Shown: in pieces, positions 1 through 7,878 of the stretch | How positions within the stretch are numbered: the stretch's first letter is position 1 | Layout: every line of letters starts with the position of its first letter | Made by a program: the position numbers and the translations under genes | Origin: Methylomarinum sp. | GTDB taxonomy: Bacteria; Pseudomonadota; Gammaproteobacteria; Methylococcales; Methylomonadaceae | NCBI GenBank assembly: GCA_013139755.1 | Contig: WTAG01000498.1 | Span: 1-7,878 of the forward strand | Direction of reading: 5' to 3' | Length of the DNA: 7,878 bases | Notes under the pieces: generated by a model | The model's database searches: none | Told to the model about the DNA's origin: nothing | What the model saw: only the letters and a program-made list of their open reading frames with translations

Positions 1-1
1 A

Positions 2-94
2 CATGGTAATGAAGACATGATTGGAAAGTATGTGCAAAATCAGGGAAAAACATATCAGAAGCTTCACGAAGCGTACCAGTTATCACTCTTTTAA
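2..94 (+). CDS. tnpA: IS200/IS605-family Y1 transposase TnpA, C-terminal end (partial)
   Basis: This reading frame enters from the left edge and encodes 30 residues before a TAA stop at 92-94. The visible peptide contains GKYVQNQGK followed by a tail ending QLSLF. TnpA proteins of the IS200/IS605 family (single-strand HUH transposases) carry their catalytic tyrosine in a late helix, with a metal-binding glutamine four residues on (Y127 and Q131 in IS608). The Y-V-Q-N-Q here has exactly that spacing and sits about 20 residues from the C terminus, as expected. The palindrome immediately after the stop supports the assignment. The HUH motif itself lies outside the window, so a related REP-associated transposase (RAYT) cannot be excluded. 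Confidence 0.6.
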   Translation, partial: HGNEDMIGKYVQNQGKTYQKLHEAYQLSLF

Positions 95-119
95 TACCCC
101 GTCCGCTTGCGGCGGGGTA
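95..119 (+). repeat. Imperfect palindrome with one unpaired T, probable IS right-end hairpin
   Basis: TACCCCG (95-101) pairs with CGGGGTA (113-119), and CCGC (103-106) pairs with GCGG (109-112). This leaves T102 unpaired mid-stem and a TT tip at 107-108. TnpA of IS608 recognises subterminal hairpins that carry an extruded T in the stem, so the shape fits a transposase-binding right end on the tnpA coding strand. It starts directly after the tnpA stop codon. It might also act as a weak transcription terminator, but no clear T-run follows in either direction. Confidence 0.6.
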
Positions 120-124
120 GTTTA

Positions 125-343
125 TTAGGCTTTTGCTGTTTTCGGGTATTTATCCTTATGAATTTGACGCAGATGAAATAAGCTATCTTCCAGTTTTTCA
201 GTAATTTCACTTTGTTTTAAAGACCGGCAATTCGGTTGGATAAATGCGCGATAAAAAAAGCTGATAATCAGAGGCGCATTATCGACACAGAGTAAACGCC
301 AGGTAGGGTGCTGGCGTAATTTAAGTAAATAATCATGTTCCAT
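125..343 (-). pseudogene. jetA: Truncated DUF3375 protein (JetA of a Wadjet system), N-terminal 72 codons
   Basis: The 72-residue product has the typical start of DUF3375 proteins: a Leu/Arg-rich opening, then HPTWRLL, DNAPLIISFF, a segment with QPNCRSL and SEITEKLED, and finally YPKTAKA just before the stop. In the family this last stretch normally continues into a YLxxW-type segment, and full proteins are roughly 480-500 residues, so about 85 percent is missing. The stop codon falls at the inferred IS junction, which indicates truncation by insertion rather than a short natural gene. DUF3375 is JetA, the MukF/kleisin-like first subunit of the type I Wadjet SMC complex that removes plasmids. 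The ATG lies 11 nt after the cysZ-like stop, with only a weak AG-rich ribosome site. The jetB, jetC and jetD genes would lie left of the window. Confidence 0.75.
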
Positions 344-354
344 TATATTTTCTG

Positions 355-1077
355 CTATTTCTTAGCTGAAATACCATAAATATACACCGTCGCGCCAATC
401 ACTGCCGCTGGTGCGATAATTAAATTAAGCACAGGAATAGACAAACCAACAACCGTTAAGCCACCAAAACTTAACACACCTATACGTCGGTTTTTCGCCT
501 CATCTTTCTGCTGTGCAAATAATAAGCCCTTATTTTCCAGTGGGTAGGCCATAAATTCCAGCCCCATTCCCCATGCACCAAATAATACCCATAAAAAAGG
601 AGCTATTAGGTTAACCACGGGGATGATAAATAAAATCAATAGCGGTAGCATTCGACTGGCTAAATAACCCATACGCTTTAGCTCTGCTAAAACAACTTGA
701 GTTATTGGCTGTTCTTCAATCTTACTGGGTTCTCCTGATACAATTTCTAAGGTTTTTGCTGCTAATTGGCTATAAAAAGGCGAGGCAATTAAGTTAGCCA
801 AAATAGTAAAAGTAAAGAAACCAACTACTGAGAAGCTGGTAAAAAATAATGGCCAAATAAACCATTCCAGCCAAGATAACCAAGTCGGAATAAACTGGGC
901 AATTAAATCAGAGAGATAGAAATAGCCTAAGGCAAAGGCAATACTGTATAAGACCAAATTAATAAATATTGGAATAATCAAAAACTTGCGTAGTTCTGGC
1001 CTGGTTAATAATTTTAGCCCTTGCATAAAGCAGCTAATTGCATAAACAGGGCTATTCTTTTTTTCGGTTAAACTCAT
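355..1077 (-). CDS. cysZ: CysZ-like sulfate transporter, EI24-domain membrane protein
   Basis: The 240-residue protein is close to E. coli CysZ (253 residues), an inner-membrane protein that brings sulfate into the cell for cysteine synthesis. Visible family signatures are an N-terminal GLKLLTRPELRKF segment, the ILANLIASPFYSQLAAK stretch at about residues 92-108, and a C-terminal GVLSFGGLTVVGLSIPVLN region. Hydrophobic segments lie at about 32-56, 74-98, 143-175 and 203-235, and a charged cytoplasmic stretch (EAKNRR) precedes the last. The start ATG overlaps the mtnA stop as ATGA, so the gene is probably translationally coupled to mtnA. It may therefore tie sulfur uptake to methionine salvage, but this is inference; EI24 proteins vary and sulfate transport is not proven here. 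Confidence 0.85.
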   Translation of the reverse strand: MSLTEKKNSPVYAISCFMQGLKLLTRPELRKFLIIPIFINLVLYSIAFALGYFYLSDLIAQFIPTWLSWLEWFIWPLFFTSFSVVGFFTFTILANLIASPFYSQLAAKTLEIVSGEPSKIEEQPITQVVLAELKRMGYLASRMLPLLILFIIPVVNLIAPFLWVLFGAWGMGLEFMAYPLENKGLLFAQQKDEAKNRRIGVLSFGGLTVVGLSIPVLNLIIAPAAVIGATVYIYGISAKK

Positions 1078-2111
1078 GATTGTAAACTCCTTACACCTTG
1101 TTCTGAGGGATTTAATACAACCCCTTGTTCTGTCACTATCGCACTAATTAAATTTGCTGGGGTAACATCAAATACTGGATTCCAGGCACTGATTAATGAA
1201 TCCTCTTTGATATAACATTCGGGTAATAATTCCTTTTGATTTCGTTGCTCAATGATAATACCCTCCCCTGTTTCCATAGCAAAATCTATTGTAGATAATG
1301 GTGCGACCACCATCACCTTAACGCCATGATGTTTTGCTAAAACAGCTAATGAATAAGTGCCAATTTTATTGGCGACATCACCATTCGCAGCAATTCTATC
1401 AGCGCCGACAATAATCCAATCCAGTTTGCCTGCTTGCATTAACCAAGCAGCCGCTGAATCAGCAATTAATGTGACGGCTATATTATCTTGCGCTAATTCC
1501 CATGCGGTTAAGCGTGCGCCTTGCAACCAGGGTCTGGTTTCCCCTGCATAAACCGTATTTAACCCCCGTTTGTGCGCACTTCTAATCACCCCTAGCGCAG
1601 TGCCATAACCACCTGTGGCTAATGCACCGGCATTACAATGTGTCATCACGGCTTTAGCATCAATTAGTAGATCAGCACCTAATTCACCCATGGTTTGGTT
1701 GGCTTTAATATCATCCGCATGGATTTTCTCTGCAACCTTAATAACTTCTGCTACCACATCAGCAACTGGCTTATCCAACACTTTTTGCATTGTTTCCAAT
1801 GCCCAGAACAGGTTAACAGCGGTAGGACGTGATTGAGAAAGTTGTTGTATATCCTTATCTACCTTAGTTTTCCAAGCTATGTCAGATTCAGAATAATGCT
1901 GCATTACCGATAAAGCCACACCATAAGCGGCTGCTATACCAATCGCAGGCGCACCTCTGACACGCATACTACTGATTGCCTCAGCAACGCCTGCTGCATC
2001 GGTATACTCATCATAAGTAATGGTTTCAGGTAATACTCGCTGGTCTAAAATTTTGACACTGCTGCCTGTCCACTCCAGCGCGTGAACCTTTAATTCATTT
2101 TTTGAATTCAT
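1074..2111 (-). CDS. mtnA: S-methyl-5-thioribose-1-phosphate isomerase
   Basis: MtnA converts the ring-form aldose 5-methylthioribose-1-phosphate to the ketose 5-methylthioribulose-1-phosphate in the cytosolic methionine salvage pathway. The 345-residue length is normal. Motifs seen are RVRGAPAIGIAAAYG at 50-64, which includes the phosphate-binding RGAP, THCNAGALAT at 157-166 with the catalytic Cys at 159, ETRPWLQGARLTAWEL at 191-206, and VGADRIAANGDVANKIGTY from 235, with the catalytic Asp at 238. These separate it from eIF2B-like relatives. The ATG at 2111 fits the usual N terminus; the ribosome site is weak. It lies divergent to mtaD, as in Pseudomonas, and overlaps the cysZ-like gene by 4 nt. 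No later salvage genes (mtnB, mtnC, mtnD) are in the window. Confidence 0.95.
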   Translation of the reverse strand: MNSKNELKVHALEWTGSSVKILDQRVLPETITYDEYTDAAGVAEAISSMRVRGAPAIGIAAAYGVALSVMQHYSESDIAWKTKVDKDIQQLSQSRPTAVNLFWALETMQKVLDKPVADVVAEVIKVAEKIHADDIKANQTMGELGADLLIDAKAVMTHCNAGALATGGYGTALGVIRSAHKRGLNTVYAGETRPWLQGARLTAWELAQDNIAVTLIADSAAAWLMQAGKLDWIIVGADRIAANGDVANKIGTYSLAVLAKHHGVKVMVVAPLSTIDFAMETGEGIIIEQRNQKELLPECYIKEDSLISAWNPVFDVTPANLISAIVTEQGVVLNPSEQGVRSLQS

Positions 2112-2115
2112 TTAA

Positions 2116-2144
2116 TTATCAATAATACCTTTTATCGTTATAAT
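2116..2144 (+). promoter_or_regulatory. Candidate sigma-70 promoter for mtaD
   Basis: TTATCA (2116-2121) and TATAAT (2139-2144) are separated by 17 bp. The -10 box is a perfect consensus match and the -35 matches 4 of 6. Transcription would start near 2151, giving a leader of about 100 nt that includes the pyrimidine-rich repeat. The region is AT-rich, so chance matches are common. On the opposite strand TATAAC (2142-2137) could serve as a -10 for mtnA, but no good -35 partner is seen. Confidence 0.4.
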
Positions 2145-2201
2145 TCTATTCATTTAGATTTAATAATATTCGAGACGTTTGCATAAGAGCGTTATTTTAT
2201 T

Positions 2202-2235
2202 TCCCTCTCACCCAATCCTCTCCCTCCGAAGAGGG
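2202..2235. repeat. Short pyrimidine-rich dispersed repeat with a small hairpin
   Basis: The segment starts with CCCTCTCACCC, continues with TCCTCTCCC and ends with GAGGG. CCCTC (2222-2226) and GAGGG (2231-2235) form a 5-bp stem with a CGAA loop, and the first CCCTC (2203-2207) could compete for the same GAGGG. Similar C/T-rich elements ending in a GAGGG half-site recur between genes in many proteobacteria (recalled, not searched). It lies in the mtaD leader, 18 nt before the start codon. Confidence 0.4.
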
Positions 2236-2253
2236 CTTAAGAAACAAATATCT

Positions 2254-3573
2254 ATGAAAGTTGATCTTATTATTCAAGCACGCTGGATTATACCTGTTGA
2301 ACCTGATTCAGTAACCTATGAAAACCATAGTCTGGTGGTTGATGATGGAAAAATCGTAGATTTACTGCCATCTGCCCAAGCCGAACAAAAGTACCAAGCT
2401 TCATCATTAGAAAAACGGGATAAGCATGTGCTGATGCCGGGGTTAATCAATAGCCATACTCATGCCAGCATGTCTTTAATGCGTGGCATTGCAGACGATT
2501 TACCTTTAATGGATTGGTTGCACAATCATATCTGGCCTTTAGAAAAAAAATGGGTCAGTGAAGCCTTTGTTAGAGATGGCACCGATTTAGCTATCGCCGT
2601 AATGATTAAAGGTGGCACCACCTGTTTCAACGATATGTATTTCTTTCCTGATATTGCAGCTCATCAAGCAATTAAGCACGGCATACGTGCCAGTATTGGT
2701 TTAATCATAATAGACTTCCCCACGGTCTGGGCGGATAACAGTGAAGTATATATAGAAAAAGGCTTGGCTTTACATGAGCAATTACGCCATGAACCCTTAA
2801 TAACCACCCCTTTTGCCCCACATGCACCTTATACAGTTTCCGATGAACCGTTAGCTAAAGCCCGCACCTTTGCTGATGAGCTTGAATTGCAAATACACAT
2901 GCATGTACACGAGACCGCGCATGAAGTTGAGGATCAACAAGAAAAGAGCCAGCAAACACCTTTACAACGATTACATGAATTAGGATTACTTAGCCCCTCA
3001 TTTATGGCTGTACACATGACTCAATTAACCGATGATGATATCCGTCTAGTTGCAGAAACAGGGGCGCATATCATTCATTGCCCAGAATCCAACCTTAAAC
3101 TTGCCAGTGGCTTTTGCCCTGTTGCAAAATGTTTAGATGCTGGAATTAATGTTGCTTTAGGTACTGACAGCGCTGCCAGCAACAATGATTTAGATATGTT
3201 TGGAGAAATGCGTACTGCAGCCCTTTTAGGCAAAGGGGTTGCTGGGGACCCAAGTGCTGTTTCTGCAATGACTGTCATTAAAATGGCGACTATCAATGGT
3301 GCAAAAGCATTAGGCATTGAAGAAGTAACCGGCTCTTTATCTATTGGTAAAGCCGCCGATATTATAGCTATTGATTTAGAGCAACTGGAAACTCAACCCT
3401 TGTATGATCCAATATCACAGATTGTTTATGCCGCTAACCGCCAACAAGTAACGGATGTTTGGGTAGCTGGAAAGCAATTATTAAAACAACGTCAACTCAC
3501 TACTATTAACATTGATGATTTAAAATTAAAAATAGCTGAATGGCAACAACGACTAAAACCATTTAACGACTAA
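2254..3573 (+). CDS. mtaD: 5-methylthioadenosine/S-adenosylhomocysteine deaminase, TRZ/ATZ amidohydrolase
   Basis: This 439-residue cytosolic metal-dependent hydrolase probably deaminates methylthioadenosine to methylthioinosine, and possibly S-adenosylhomocysteine. Residues fitting the family are the metal pair H68/H70 in PGLINSHTHASMSLMRG, H217 and E220 in HMHVHET, H254 in AVHMTQL, and D305 in LGTDSAASNN; the HCPESNLKLASG signature is at 275-286. The counterparts in Thermotoga Tm0936 are H200, E203, H228 and D279. The ATG at 2254 was chosen because the protein then starts MKVDLIIQARWIIPVEP as in relatives. The frame is open upstream to a TTG at 2179, but that part translates the repeat and is not protein-like. 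Pairing with mtnA supports MTA rather than triazine or other amidine substrates. The usual neighbour ubiG is not present downstream. Confidence 0.9.
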   Translation: MKVDLIIQARWIIPVEPDSVTYENHSLVVDDGKIVDLLPSAQAEQKYQASSLEKRDKHVLMPGLINSHTHASMSLMRGIADDLPLMDWLHNHIWPLEKKWVSEAFVRDGTDLAIAVMIKGGTTCFNDMYFFPDIAAHQAIKHGIRASIGLIIIDFPTVWADNSEVYIEKGLALHEQLRHEPLITTPFAPHAPYTVSDEPLAKARTFADELELQIHMHVHETAHEVEDQQEKSQQTPLQRLHELGLLSPSFMAVHMTQLTDDDIRLVAETGAHIIHCPESNLKLASGFCPVAKCLDAGINVALGTDSAASNNDLDMFGEMRTAALLGKGVAGDPSAVSAMTVIKMATINGAKALGIEEVTGSLSIGKAADIIAIDLEQLETQPLYDPISQIVYAANRQQVTDVWVAGKQLLKQRQLTTINIDDLKLKIAEWQQRLKPFND

Positions 3574-3607
3574 AATCAGTTGGCATCGAATAATTTAAAC
3601 ATTAAAA

Positions 3608-3634
3608 GGATGGGCAAGGGTTACGTGCCCATCC
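3608..3634 (-). terminator. Hairpin terminator between convergent corC and mtaD
   Basis: GGATGGGCA (3608-3616) and TGCCCATCC (3626-3634) form a perfect 9-bp stem with a 9-nt loop. Read on the minus strand it is followed by TTTTAAT, which fits an intrinsic terminator for the miaB-phoH-ybeY-corC operon, 18 nt past the corC stop. On the plus strand no T-run follows directly, so any termination of mtaD would be weaker. Confidence 0.75.
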
Positions 3635-3651
3635 AACGGTTGTTAAAAGTA

Positions 3652-4518
3652 CTATGCACGTTTCTTTTCTTTCACATCCAGCAACTTCAATTTTAACAAA
3701 TAAATCCGCCTGTCATCAGCATGTAACACCTCAAAACGGAATTGATCATACTCTAATTTATCGCCTTTCTTAGGCATTGCACCTAACTGATGAACAATAA
3801 ACCCGCCTATTGTTTCATGCTCATCATCTTGCAAATCAGCCGAAAAATAGTCATTAAATTCATTAATTGGCGTTAAGGCTTGCAGAGTATATTTTTTATC
3901 ACTATTCTTCTCAATATACGCATCTTCCTGAACATTAGCATCATGCTCATCCTCAATTTCACCAACTATTTGCTCTAATACATCTTCAATGGTAACTAAG
4001 CCAGCTGCCATACCATATTCATCAACAACAATTGCCATATGGTGACGCTCAGTTCTAAACTCTCGTAGCAATACATTTAAGCGTTTACTTTCTGGTACCA
4101 CACTAACCGGCCGCATAACATCCTCAACCGTTAGTGCTTTATTTTCAAAAGCATACGCAATCAGATCTTTTGCTAGCAAAACCCCAACCACTTTACTGCG
4201 GTCATCTTCAATTACAGGAAATCTTGAGTGACCTAACTCCAAAATCAATGGCAAAATAGTTTCTAATGTCGCCTCTTTTGGCACTGCATTCATTTGCACA
4301 CGCGGAATCATAATATCTCTGACACGCATTTCAGAGAATTGCAACACGCTCTGCATCATTGATAAAGCTTCTGCATCTAACAAATGCTTTTCTTCTGCAT
4401 CTTTTAAAATATCTAACAGATCATCTTGGTCTTGTGGCTCCCCAGACAGAAACTGACCAATACGATCAATTAAACTTTTCTGTTGGGGCGGACTACTTGG
4501 GGGCTTTTCATCACTCAT
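3652..4518 (-). CDS. corC: CorC/YbeX-type CBS-domain protein (HlyC/CorC family)
   Basis: The 288-residue soluble protein matches E. coli CorC/YbeX (292 residues). It has a Pro/Gln-rich N terminus, two CBS domains at about 66-125 (opening [10 protein letters not shown]) and 131-190 (opening [13 protein letters not shown], with [28 protein letters not shown] at the end), and a C-terminal CorC_HlyC transporter-associated domain at about 205-285 ([16 protein letters not shown]). No membrane DUF21 domain is present, as in true CorC. E. coli CorC was linked to magnesium/cobalt efflux with CorA, and YbeX has been tied to ribosome maturation; which applies here is open. Its ATG overlaps the ybeY stop as ATGA, and GAGGAG lies 11 nt upstream. 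The gene ends the operon; lnt, which follows in E. coli, is absent. Confidence 0.93.
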
Positions 4519-4976
4519 TTACTGCTTTTCTCCTCATAAGGGTTATTTATTTTTATAGTTTTTAAAATTTTAACTTCTAACGCTTCCATTTCTTCGGCGT
4601 CCTGATCATCAATATGATCATATCCTAACAAATGAAGTACACCATGAACAATCATATGTGCCCAATGATGCTCTAATATTTTATCTTGTTGCTGAGCTTC
4701 TCTTTCTACCACAGCTGCACAAACCAATAAATCCCCTAACAAATCACTTTCTACAGCATCAGGCGCATCAAAAGGGAAACTTAATATATTGGTTGAGCCT
4801 GTTTTATTACGATACTGCTCATTAAACTGTGTCATTTCATCTTCATCAACAACTCGGATAACAATTTCAGAGTCTTGAGAATCGTCTTTTAGTACGCTAT
4901 CAACCCAGTATTGAAATTGATCTTGTGATGGTAGATTTTTTGACTCAGAGACCAGTTGTAAATCTAAAACATTCAT
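4515..4976 (-). CDS. ybeY: Endoribonuclease YbeY, rRNA maturation factor
   Basis: YbeY is a zinc-dependent endoribonuclease needed for 16S rRNA 3' end maturation and 70S ribosome quality control. The 153-residue product carries the zinc motif HGVLHLLGYDH with ligands H111, H115 and H121, the family stretch YRNKTGSTNILSFPF at 55-69, and GDLLVC at 81-86. The ATG at 4976 gives MNVLDLQLV, which aligns with the start of E. coli YbeY and leaves 1 nt after the phoH stop. A second ATG at 5006 would add 10 residues inside phoH and is less likely. The 3' end overlaps corC by 4 nt. Confidence 0.93.
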   Translation of the reverse strand: MNVLDLQLVSESKNLPSQDQFQYWVDSVLKDDSQDSEIVIRVVDEDEMTQFNEQYRNKTGSTNILSFPFDAPDAVESDLLGDLLVCAAVVEREAQQQDKILEHHWAHMIVHGVLHLLGYDHIDDQDAEEMEALEVKILKTIKINNPYEEKSSK

Positions 4977-4977
4977 A

Positions 4978-5955
4978 TCAACTATGTTTCTTTTCGTAAC
5001 GTTCATAAGCTAAAACGATACGCTGGACTAGAGGGTGCCTAACCACATCCTTAACGCCAAAAAAAGTAAAACTGATGCCTTCAACCTCTTTTAACACTTC
5101 TAACACATGTTTTAAACCCGACATTTTTTCATTGGGTAAATCTATCTGCGTCACATCGCCTGTCACCACTGCGGTTGATCCAAAGCCAACACGGGTCAAA
5201 AACATTTTTATTTGCTCAACGGTGGTATTTTGAGCCTCATCCAAAATGATAAAAGAATCATTCAAGGTTCTACCTCGCATAAAGGCCAAAGGGGCAACTT
5301 CAATTACGCCTTTTTCAAGCATCTTTTCTGCACGTTCAAATCCGAGCATTTCATAAAGTGCATCATACAAAGGTCGTAAATAAGGATCAACTTTTTGCGC
5401 CATATCGCCGGGTAAAAAACCCAGTTTTTCACCCGCTTCTACAGCAGGTCTGACTAAAATAATCCGTCGCACCTTTTCTGTCTGTAATGCCTCTACAGCA
5501 CAGGCTACCGCTAAATAGGTTTTCCCCGTTCCAGCAGGCCCAACCCCAAAATTAATATCATGACTGAGTATTTTTTTTAAATAACTTTGCTGATTTTCAC
5601 CTCGGCCCTTAACGATACCCCGTTTAGTTTTAATAAATACTGTATCAACGACTTCAGTCGGAGCGACCTCTAATAGCTGATCAATGCTAGCCTCTTGCAT
5701 AGATAAATGTACCTGTTCGGGGGTTATTAAGCCTTCATTAGTTGCATCAAATAATTTTTTCATTAGCGCACATGCCACGTTAACCGCATCAGTCAATCCA
5801 GTGACTTTGAATTGATTTCCACGATTGGCAATAACCACGTGAAGGCGCTGTTCAATTTGACGCAAATGCGCGTCAAATTGTCCACAAAAATTGGATAACC
5901 GCTGATTATCAGCCGGTAATAAGGTGATTTCTTGAGAAAAATTGAGTTCTGACAA
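4978..5955 (-). CDS. ybeZ: PhoH-family ATPase (YbeZ)
   Basis: The 325-residue protein is a PhoH-like P-loop ATPase, thought to act on RNA together with YbeY, next to which it is almost always encoded. It has an N-terminal KH-like region (about 10-100), Walker A GPAGTGKT at 139-146, Walker B FIILDEAQ at 235-242, and the helicase-like VVTGDVTQ at 263-270, followed by the VVRHPLVQRIV C-terminal signature. The start is a TTG at 5955, 4 nt after the miaB stop. It gives an N terminus (EITLLPADNQRL) that aligns with E. coli YbeZ, and the next in-frame ATG (Met65) lies after conserved sequence. No strong ribosome site is visible, so translation may be coupled to miaB. Confidence 0.93.
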   Translation of the reverse strand: MSELNFSQEITLLPADNQRLSNFCGQFDAHLRQIEQRLHVVIANRGNQFKVTGLTDAVNVACALMKKLFDATNEGLITPEQVHLSMQEASIDQLLEVAPTEVVDTVFIKTKRGIVKGRGENQQSYLKKILSHDINFGVGPAGTGKTYLAVACAVEALQTEKVRRIILVRPAVEAGEKLGFLPGDMAQKVDPYLRPLYDALYEMLGFERAEKMLEKGVIEVAPLAFMRGRTLNDSFIILDEAQNTTVEQIKMFLTRVGFGSTAVVTGDVTQIDLPNEKMSGLKHVLEVLKEVEGISFTFFGVKDVVRHPLVQRIVLAYERYEKKHS

Positions 5956-5959
5956 GTGA

Positions 5960-7318
5960 CTATGATTCGTTATTTAGGATTTTATCAATAGAAGACTCAA
6001 CTAAACGCCCTCTTAGAGAATTAGGTAAAGCTTCAGTAATCATCACATCAACAAACTGCCCCGCTAAACGCGGATGAGCCGTAAAGTTAACTACACGATT
6101 ATTCTCTGTTCTACCTGTTACTTGCAGTGGATTCTTTTTTGACACACCTTCTACCAAAACTGTTTGAACGGTATCAACCATACTGTTTGAAACATCCATG
6201 GTCATTTCATCTAGTCTAGCTTTTAATATTTTAAGACGCTCTTTTTTAACGTCTTCGGGAGTATCATCAGTAAATTCTGCAGCAGGTGTACCAGGACGAG
6301 CGCTGTAAACAAAACTATAAGAAAAATCAAAGCCCACCTGCTCTATTAAAGACATAGTCTCTTCAAATTCTTGTTCTGTTTCACCAGGAAAACCAATAAT
6401 AAAATCAGAAGATAAACTTATATTAGGACGAACCGCTTTCATTTTGTCCATAATTTCAAGATATTCTGCTCGTGTATAGCCCCGTTTCATTTGTGCCAAA
6501 ACATTATCACTGCCACTTTGCACGGGAAGGTGCAAATGATTCACTAAAGCAGGAATTTCAGCAAAGGCTTCAATAATATCGTCGGTAAATTCAGCGGGAT
6601 GCGAAGTAGTAAAGCGAATTCTATCAATACCTTCTACCGCAGCAACATAATGTAACAGTAATGAAAATTCAGCGATCTCTCCATCGTCCATTTCACCACG
6701 ATAAGCATTAACATTTTGCCCTAGCAAATTAATTTCTCTTACCCCTTGAGCCGCTAGCGCAGAAATTTCATCTATCACATCCTGAAGAGGACGACTGATT
6801 TCTTCACCTCGTGTATAAGGCACTACACAAAAGGTACAGTATTTACTACAGCCTTCCATAATGGAGACAAAAGCCTTTGGACCTTCAGCACGCGGCTCAG
6901 GTAAAGCATCAAATTTTTCTATTTCAGGAAAGGAAATATCAACAACACGCTTATGACCAGATCGCGCCTCATTTAATAACTCAGGCAGCCTATGCAGCGT
7001 TTGTGGACCAAATACAATATCAACATAAGGTGCGCGCTTTTGAATAGCAGCTCCTTCTTGACTTGCTACACAGCCACCCACACCGATAATGACACCGGGT
7101 CTGTTATTCTTGATTTTTCTCCACCGTCCTATAGCAGAAAACACTTTTTCTTGTGCCTTCTCTCTAATTGAGCAAGTATTTAAAAGTAACACATCCGCTT
7201 CTTCTGGAATTTCGGTCATTTCCATACCATGAGAAGCTTGTAGTACATCCCGCATTTTATCGGAATCGTACTCGTTCATTTGACAGCCGTTAGTCTGTAT
7301 ATATAGTTTTTGCGCCAT
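5960..7318 (-). CDS. miaB: tRNA-2-methylthio-N6-dimethylallyladenosine synthase MiaB
   Basis: MiaB is a radical-SAM methylthiotransferase that adds a methylthio group to i6A37 of tRNAs reading UNN codons. The 452-residue protein has the N-terminal UPF0004 domain with cluster cysteines C12 ([11 protein letters not shown]), C49 (NTCSIREKA) and C83 (GGCVASQEG). The radical-SAM CxxxCxxC follows at C157, C161 and C164 ([10 protein letters not shown]), and a C-terminal TRAM domain lies at about 381-443 ([20 protein letters not shown]). The ATG at 7318 fits the family start [15 protein letters not shown]. An in-frame TTG at 7339 would add 7 residues and has an AGG-rich site (AAAGGTAGG) just upstream, so it remains possible. 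It is the first gene of the operon with phoH, ybeY and corC. Confidence 0.97.
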
Positions 7319-7393
7319 ATTCGTTTGTAGATACTCCAACTAACCTACCTTTAAAAATATTCAACCTAGCGATTGAATTCAAAAATGGCATGC

Positions 7394-7399
7394 ATTATA
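7394..7399 (-). promoter_or_regulatory. Candidate -10 box of the miaB operon promoter
   Basis: On the minus strand this reads TATAAT, a perfect consensus -10 box. Transcription would start near 7387 and give a leader of about 70 nt. No good TTGACA-like -35 hexamer lies at 16-18 bp, and there is no TGn extension, so the promoter may need an activator or be a chance match. Confidence 0.35.
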
Positions 7400-7569
7400 A
7401 CCTGAATCAGTAACAACAACCTAAATACCAAATTTAATCCTGATAAACCGAAATTTCCAGCCACACCAACACCAGAAATAACACTTAATTTTCAACTAGT
7501 TAAATACAATTTAATATAAGCATTCATTCTTCATAGAGAAAAAATAGTGCCACGTTTCAATTAATTTAC

Positions 7570-7815
7570 CTCTGTACACGACAAAAAAACAAATTCTATT
7601 TTAACTGGTTGATTTTATAAATGGTTTTCACATAAATCATGTAGCCCGTATGAAGCTTAAGCGTAATACGGGGGCTTTATACACTAAATTCTCGTATTAC
7701 ACGCTGTTTCATACGGGCAAATAACACGATACGTTTAATTTTAATCTAGCCACAACTGCATTTTATTAAAAAAATAAATAACTTATATTTTATTGGTTTT
7801 TTGTCGTGTACAGAG
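7570..7815. mobile_element. Putative MITE-like element with 19-bp terminal inverted repeats
   Basis: CTCTGTACACGACAAAAAA at 7570-7588 is repeated exactly in inverse orientation at 7797-7815. The bases just outside form a direct repeat, TTAATTTAC (7561-7569) and TTAATTCAC (7816-7824), matching 8 of 9, which looks like a 9-bp target duplication with one later change. The roughly 246-bp interior has no credible gene, so the element would be non-autonomous and moved by a transposase elsewhere. The family is not recognised. The structure is seen directly; mobility is inferred. Confidence 0.55.
7641..7718. repeat. REP/REPIN-like double palindrome
   Basis: The first unit is GTAG followed by CCCGTAT (7645 onward is GCCCGTATG) and, after GCTTAAGC, ATACGGG. 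Its two ends can pair with each other. A second, diverged unit lies in inverse orientation at 7692-7718. Across the whole block GCCCGTATGAA (7645-7655) pairs perfectly with TTCATACGGGC (7708-7718), and GTAATACG (7663-7670) pairs with CGTATTAC (7693-7700). A GTAG head on a palindrome, in two inverted copies, resembles REP/REPIN elements. It sits inside the MITE-like element. Confidence 0.55.
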
Positions 7816-7878
7816 TTAATTCACTTAGAGCAACATAGAAAATAAACCCAATTATTTCCCAGCACTTTTATGATGCAA

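Follow-up and report, generated by a model that had tools for sequence, protein, structure and literature searches.

An IS200/IS605-type insertion at a TTAAAT site appears to truncate the Wadjet gene jetA in a Methylococcales methanotroph

An IS200/IS605 element, probably of the IS200 type, appears to have entered the jetA gene of a methanotroph, which the labels of its relatives place in the order Methylococcales. The analysed stretch of DNA (7,878 nucleotides, called the window below) carries the start of jetA at its left end, joined to the right end of the element. Its orientation would be opposite to that of jetA, with a TTAAAT sequence formed by jetA codons 73-75 directly on its 5′ side. 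Truncation after residue 72 would abolish JetA and hence the anti-plasmid activity of any JetBCD proteins in the cell. The event was probably recent, and selection need not be invoked. Most parsimoniously, the element entered a site that it prefers, and the insertion would have been tolerated because Wadjet was dispensable. For this explanation as a whole (an IS200/IS605 insertion at TTAAAT in jetA, truncating JetA and probably recent) we estimate a probability of about 0.88. What we infer in it is the left junction, how long the element is, the remaining jetA beyond it and the single-copy state of jetA.

The minus-strand open reading frame at 125-343 has 72 codons. The sequence-only reading had recognized the N terminus of DUF3375 (JetA) in it, and profile searches bore this out. 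The frame matched Pfam DUF3375 (PF11855) at 6.2e-14 and 52.2 bits, over a cut-off of 28.6, along positions 3-66 of the 474 in the profile. It also matched the PADLOC profile JetA1 (PDLC00457) at 3.2e-22, along positions 1-73 of 480; no NCBIfam profile matched it. When one genome per species was scanned with the fragment, 13 loci with relatives came up, 12 of them at 74-99% identity and one at 36%. Identity to residues 1-72 of the intact JetA proteins of three loci (L001-L003) was 99%. The reading frame continues to 478-505 amino acids in 11 of the 13 relatives, and stops at 264 in L006 and at 73 in L010. Directly after jetA come jetB, jetC and jetD in L001, L003, L008, L011 and L012 and in the distant L013. 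All four proteins of L003 matched type I Wadjet profiles, and its jetB-D were also searched with Pfam. Given the two profile matches and the relatives with jetBCD, the fragment belongs to a genuine jetA of a type I Wadjet. Like the JetA of type I Wadjet (JetABCD / MksBEFG / EptABCD), its 72 residues align to residues 1-72 of the intact protein. Unlike it, the window retains about 15% of the protein, no jetBCD are seen on the contig, and jetA follows mtnA-cysZ. A full-length JetA has about 480 amino acids, against 72 here, with a stop created at the junction with the insertion sequence. Judged from its sequence, the gene in the window is a broken jetA and not one for a working JetA.

Table 1. 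Features at the left end of the window and the evidence for each.
Feature	Position	Strand	Evidence
Right-hand part of an IS200/IS605-type element	1-126	+	85% DNA identity over 2-125 to two G159 copies (L084, L088)
tnpA (Y1 transposase), last 30 codons and stop	2-94	+	25/30 residues identical to G159 TnpA
Right-end subterminal hairpin of the element	95-119	+	Single-strand DNA fold; also in the hairpin scan
Right tip of the element	120-126	+	G159 copies
Junction: element ends at 126, jetA resumes at 127	126-127	.	Right end GGGGTAGTTTATT common to the G159 copies
jetA, 5′ part, 217 nt (72 codons and one base; residues 1-72 of about 479)	127-343	-	DUF3375, JetA1, identity to L001-L003
cysZ, intact, 11 bases upstream of jetA	355-1077	-	NF003433 sulfate transporter CysZ, 195.7 bits, cut-off 140
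mtnA, intact, 4-base overlap with cysZ	1074-2111	-	TIGR00512, 7.5e-133

The window appears to be a complete contig, since the longest one listed for its CysZ also has 7878 bases. Its left end would thus fall within the insertion sequence, of which the last 126 bases are shown. The 30-residue C terminus of TnpA, searched alone against Pfam, NCBIfam and PADLOC, matched no model. For this reason, a fuller tnpA copy from genome G159 was used as a proxy. The protein of the G159 copy without a stop is a Y1_Tnp transposase (PF01797, 8.7e-30). DNA matches to window positions 1-125 occurred in at least 4 of the 237 genomes of the G010 family; this search scored up to three candidates per genome, which makes the count a lower bound. 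Among the matches scored, those longer than 35 bases were both from G159 (two, 85% identity). These two copies, elements of 491 and 521 bases, resemble each other throughout, and their common end falls at the base that matches window position 126. Similarity of L088 to the window ends at that base, with GGGGTAGTTTATT. Agreement of L084 runs two bases further, to 128, and we took the two extra bases as chance matches. As the element extends to base 126, the true jetA part is 217 nt long, and the stop codon at 125-127 is composed of one jetA base and two bases of the insertion sequence. The assignment to IS200/IS605 and the cut after codon 72, both claimed in the sequence-only reading, were supported, and the junction is resolved to the base on its visible (right) side. 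The same reading had jetA stop where the transposase gene and its hairpin begin. The fragment does abut the element, but the border itself had to be moved: after the end of tnpA, the hairpin and then the tip carry the element to base 126.

The right-end hairpin has a folding energy of -10.1 kcal/mol (z = -3.6), and one of 200 shuffled sequences folded as well. The left-end hairpin of a G159 copy had a z of -0.9 and folded no better than the shuffles. Like other IS200-type members of IS200/IS605, the element in the window has what looks like the C terminus of a Y1 transposase, a right-end subterminal hairpin and, apparently, a short fixed target. Judging by the 491- and 521-base G159 copies, it is probably a tnpA-only, IS200-type element. 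Both G159 copies look damaged: L084 has a 30-base gap relative to L088, and L088 has a stop in tnpA. A tnpA match at E ≤ 1e-40 was found in 2 of the 237 related genomes. The damage and the rarity of such matches count against regarding current activity of the element as demonstrated.

Elements of the IS200/IS605 family are described as inserting on the 3′ side of a fixed, short target that is not duplicated; the target of IS608 stays in its left flank (PMC5934647, PMC7290912). Both G159 copies lie directly 3′ of TTAAAT, and their flanks are otherwise different. The copies therefore predict that jetA, before the insertion, had TTAAAT immediately ahead of window base 127. This prediction could be compared with relatives that lack the insertion, and the comparison favoured it. 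Of 17 genomes whose jetA is uninterrupted at this place, 14 carry TTAAAT exactly at the position of the break; the 14 include G006 and G010, whose jetA is broken elsewhere. Three genomes (G005, G013 and G153) are without it at the homologous position. The relatives read TTAAAT|AGGC, TTAAAT|AAGC or similar there, with TTAAAT made by a Tyr and a Leu codon plus the next base. Counted over the two strands of window positions 127-7878, the hexamer occupies 19 of 15494 positions, and the jetA genes of L001-L003 have three such sites each on the relevant strand. The target would explain where the insertion sequence fell. It differs from the TTAC target given for IS608 (PMC5934647).

Assemblies tend to end at repeats, and the contig does seem to end inside the insertion sequence, so the junction could be an assembly chimaera that joined a multi-copy element to jetA. 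A misjoin exactly at the right-end tip and at the same time exactly at the element's own target in jetA would be a strange coincidence, and we hold this explanation to be extremely unlikely. The strongest argument against misassembly, and also against a chance match, is that the TTAAAT agreement was predicted from the elements of another genome.

The 72 retained codons show no sign of decay. Compared with L001, L002 and L003, 26, 27 and 28 codons differ, of which 25-27 are synonymous and one in each comparison is non-synonymous, always at residue 64. Two intact JetA proteins, P0128 and P0129, are identical to the fragment at 72 of 72 residues. Had the insertion been old, amino-acid changes should have accumulated by now, so the condition of these codons suggests a young one, and the insertion was probably recent.

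JetA is a kleisin, and all four subunits are reported to be needed for plasmid suppression in Bacillus subtilis (PMC10586767). Solved structures of JetA exist (8q72, 9qxt, 8as8, 8dk1 and others). From the kleisin role and the four-subunit requirement, losing everything after residue 72 should give a null. Loss of JetA function through truncation is thus very likely on this analysis. The inactivation of JetA claimed earlier follows from the cut after codon 72. That the organism is a natural Wadjet knock-out is plausible, assuming a single jetA copy and jetBCD genes that are present in a system otherwise working. We do not put it higher because 9 of 17 genomes have a dispersed, incomplete or broken set of jet genes. 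For a similar reason, a polar effect of the insertion on jetBCD cannot be assumed: the jet genes are together in only 8 of the 17.

Behind these counts are searches for jetA, jetC and jetD in 17 JetA-containing genomes; jetB was searched genome-wide in 13 of them, and in G159, G016, G153 and G224 within the fetched loci only. The four genes are together in G001, G003, G008, G011, G012, G013, G016 and G224. All four are present but dispersed, or have other genes between them, in four genomes (G002, G004, G009 and G153), and parts are missing or broken in five (G005, G006, G007, G010 and G159). Direct evidence of dispersal comes from L002, L007 and L009, where an intact jetA stands among unrelated genes. 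The Wadjet locus of our organism may therefore have been incomplete or dispersed before the element arrived, and the insertion would then be one step of ordinary decay that changed little. Besides the counts, this would agree with the frameshifted jetA of G010 (L010), the relative with the same gene order, and with the jetA of G006, which has a stop and a further break. However, the 72 retained codons look constrained and undecayed, which argues that jetA probably still worked until a short time ago. The records are for the most part draft metagenome-assembled genomes (MAGs) or of uncertain completeness, so genes absent from them are weak evidence, and the narrower search for jetB in the four genomes named above bears on the counts as well. 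We regard prior decay as possible but lean against it.

A second, intact jetA elsewhere in the genome would keep Wadjet working. JetA matches at E ≤ 1e-5 were found in 60 of the 237 family genomes, some of them distant and some mere pieces (e.g. G064, G133 and G140), and a few genomes have two JetA-like matches at different places (e.g. G120 and G127). Against this, 12 of the 13 relatives have a single DUF3375 match, and the two matches of the thirteenth, G010, are pieces of one gene. We consider a second copy improbable.

The insertion might also have been selected, if losing Wadjet let the cell keep a useful plasmid. In Clostridium cellulovorans, a spontaneous mutant had lost the jetABCD genes, and deletion of jetABCD raised transconjugation by about five orders of magnitude (PMC12287153). 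Loss of Wadjet thus accompanies higher plasmid uptake in laboratory strains, according to the same source. In our case, the element just sits at a target that it prefers and nothing links the insertion to a plasmid, and we think selection unlikely. Lower still in our estimation is reversible silencing of Wadjet in this group through early breaks of jetA (an insertion sequence here, a frameshift in G010). Excision of IS608 is described as resealing the flanking donor DNA (PMC5934647). If jetA were switched reversibly, populations could alternate between plasmid exclusion and plasmid tolerance.

The jetA fragment lies downstream of mtnA and cysZ, an order also found in L010, where cysZ and jetA are 2 bases apart against 11 in the window. 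Because of the shared order and the short spacing, jetA is likely transcribed together with mtnA and cysZ. A promoter scan of positions 1-2300 gave five sites against 7.1 expected in shuffled sequences and none between cysZ and jetA, a result of little weight either way. The three genes differ in their similarity to relatives. No genome of the same species turned up by CysZ among the 237 of the G010 family, where the best matches were 76% (G010) and 74% (G002) identical. At the DNA level, the jetA fragment is 84.3-87.6% identical to G002, G003 and G010, against 71.6% (G002) and 72.8% (G010) for cysZ and 71.7% (G002) for mtnA. The neighbours of jetA differ in L001, L002, L003, L007 and L009, and the upstream genes are common to L004, L005 and L006. 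The higher identity of jetA and its varied neighbours fit horizontal movement of the jet genes. Stronger constraint on the short N-terminal piece could also account for the higher identity.

The JetA in the Wadjet set of a MAG labelled Oleiphilus (L001) shares 96% identity with the JetA of a Methyloprofundus MAG. We take these two to be distant lineages. The set in L001 reflects either a transfer between them or a misbinned contig.

By itself, the insertion is ordinary biology of insertion sequences, a clean and well-documented case of a known kind of event. Among the papers listed by literature searches, no title or opening of an abstract named an insertion-broken Wadjet gene, and we make no claim that such cases are unreported. 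As in the ept mutants of Mycobacterium smegmatis and the deletion in C. cellulovorans, a Wadjet component appears to be lost in a host that carries the system; a plasmid phenotype was measured in those laboratory strains, whereas the organism of the window is known from sequence alone. What the case offers is a natural interruption of a Wadjet gene, resolved to the base, in an environmental bacterium. It also adds one data point to the picture that Methylococcales methanotrophs retain Wadjet patchily, in places split or broken, and such data would help to ask whether loss of Wadjet accompanies plasmid carriage. One paper lists Wadjet for snail symbionts that oxidise sulfur and methane, whose defence genes it treats as a single group (PMC8418041).

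Several other jet loci were seen in altered states. In G002 and G009, Wadjet is split, with jetBCD on another contig of the same genome than jetA. The frameshift in L010 falls in an A-rich run near codon 64 (L010 positions 975-1196) and recurs in P0004, an identical protein for which a longer contig (26207) is listed; P0131 is almost the same protein in intact form. About 2.5 kb (L010 positions 2414-4920) separate this jetA from jetB and encode a TPR protein and a PIN-domain protein; the latter has a small upstream ORF and is toxin-antitoxin-like. In L006 (8176-9834), from a methanotrophic symbiont of Bathymodiolus, jetA has an in-frame stop after 264 codons. Similarity to JetA is lost after about residue 353, where another ORF follows that had no Pfam match and that we take to look transposase-like. 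The jetD pieces of G006 also contain stops. To judge by these breaks, L006 is another, independent loss of jetA.

All five short relatives of the fragment from the protein database, P0002-P0006 (lengths 45-110), part from JetA somewhere between about residues 43 and 76, and four do so within about 10 residues of the break in the window. This may be a length bias, as the search admits only about 40-126 amino acids. The contigs of P0002 and P0005 are shorter than 900 bases.

Elsewhere in the window, upstream of miaB, a stretch of 246 bases (7570-7815) carries at its two ends a terminal inverted repeat of 19 bases without mismatch (CTCTGTACACGACAAAAAA). It contains no ORF of 50 codons and, by eye, has an internal palindromic segment. 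It looks like a transposase-less (MITE-like) element.
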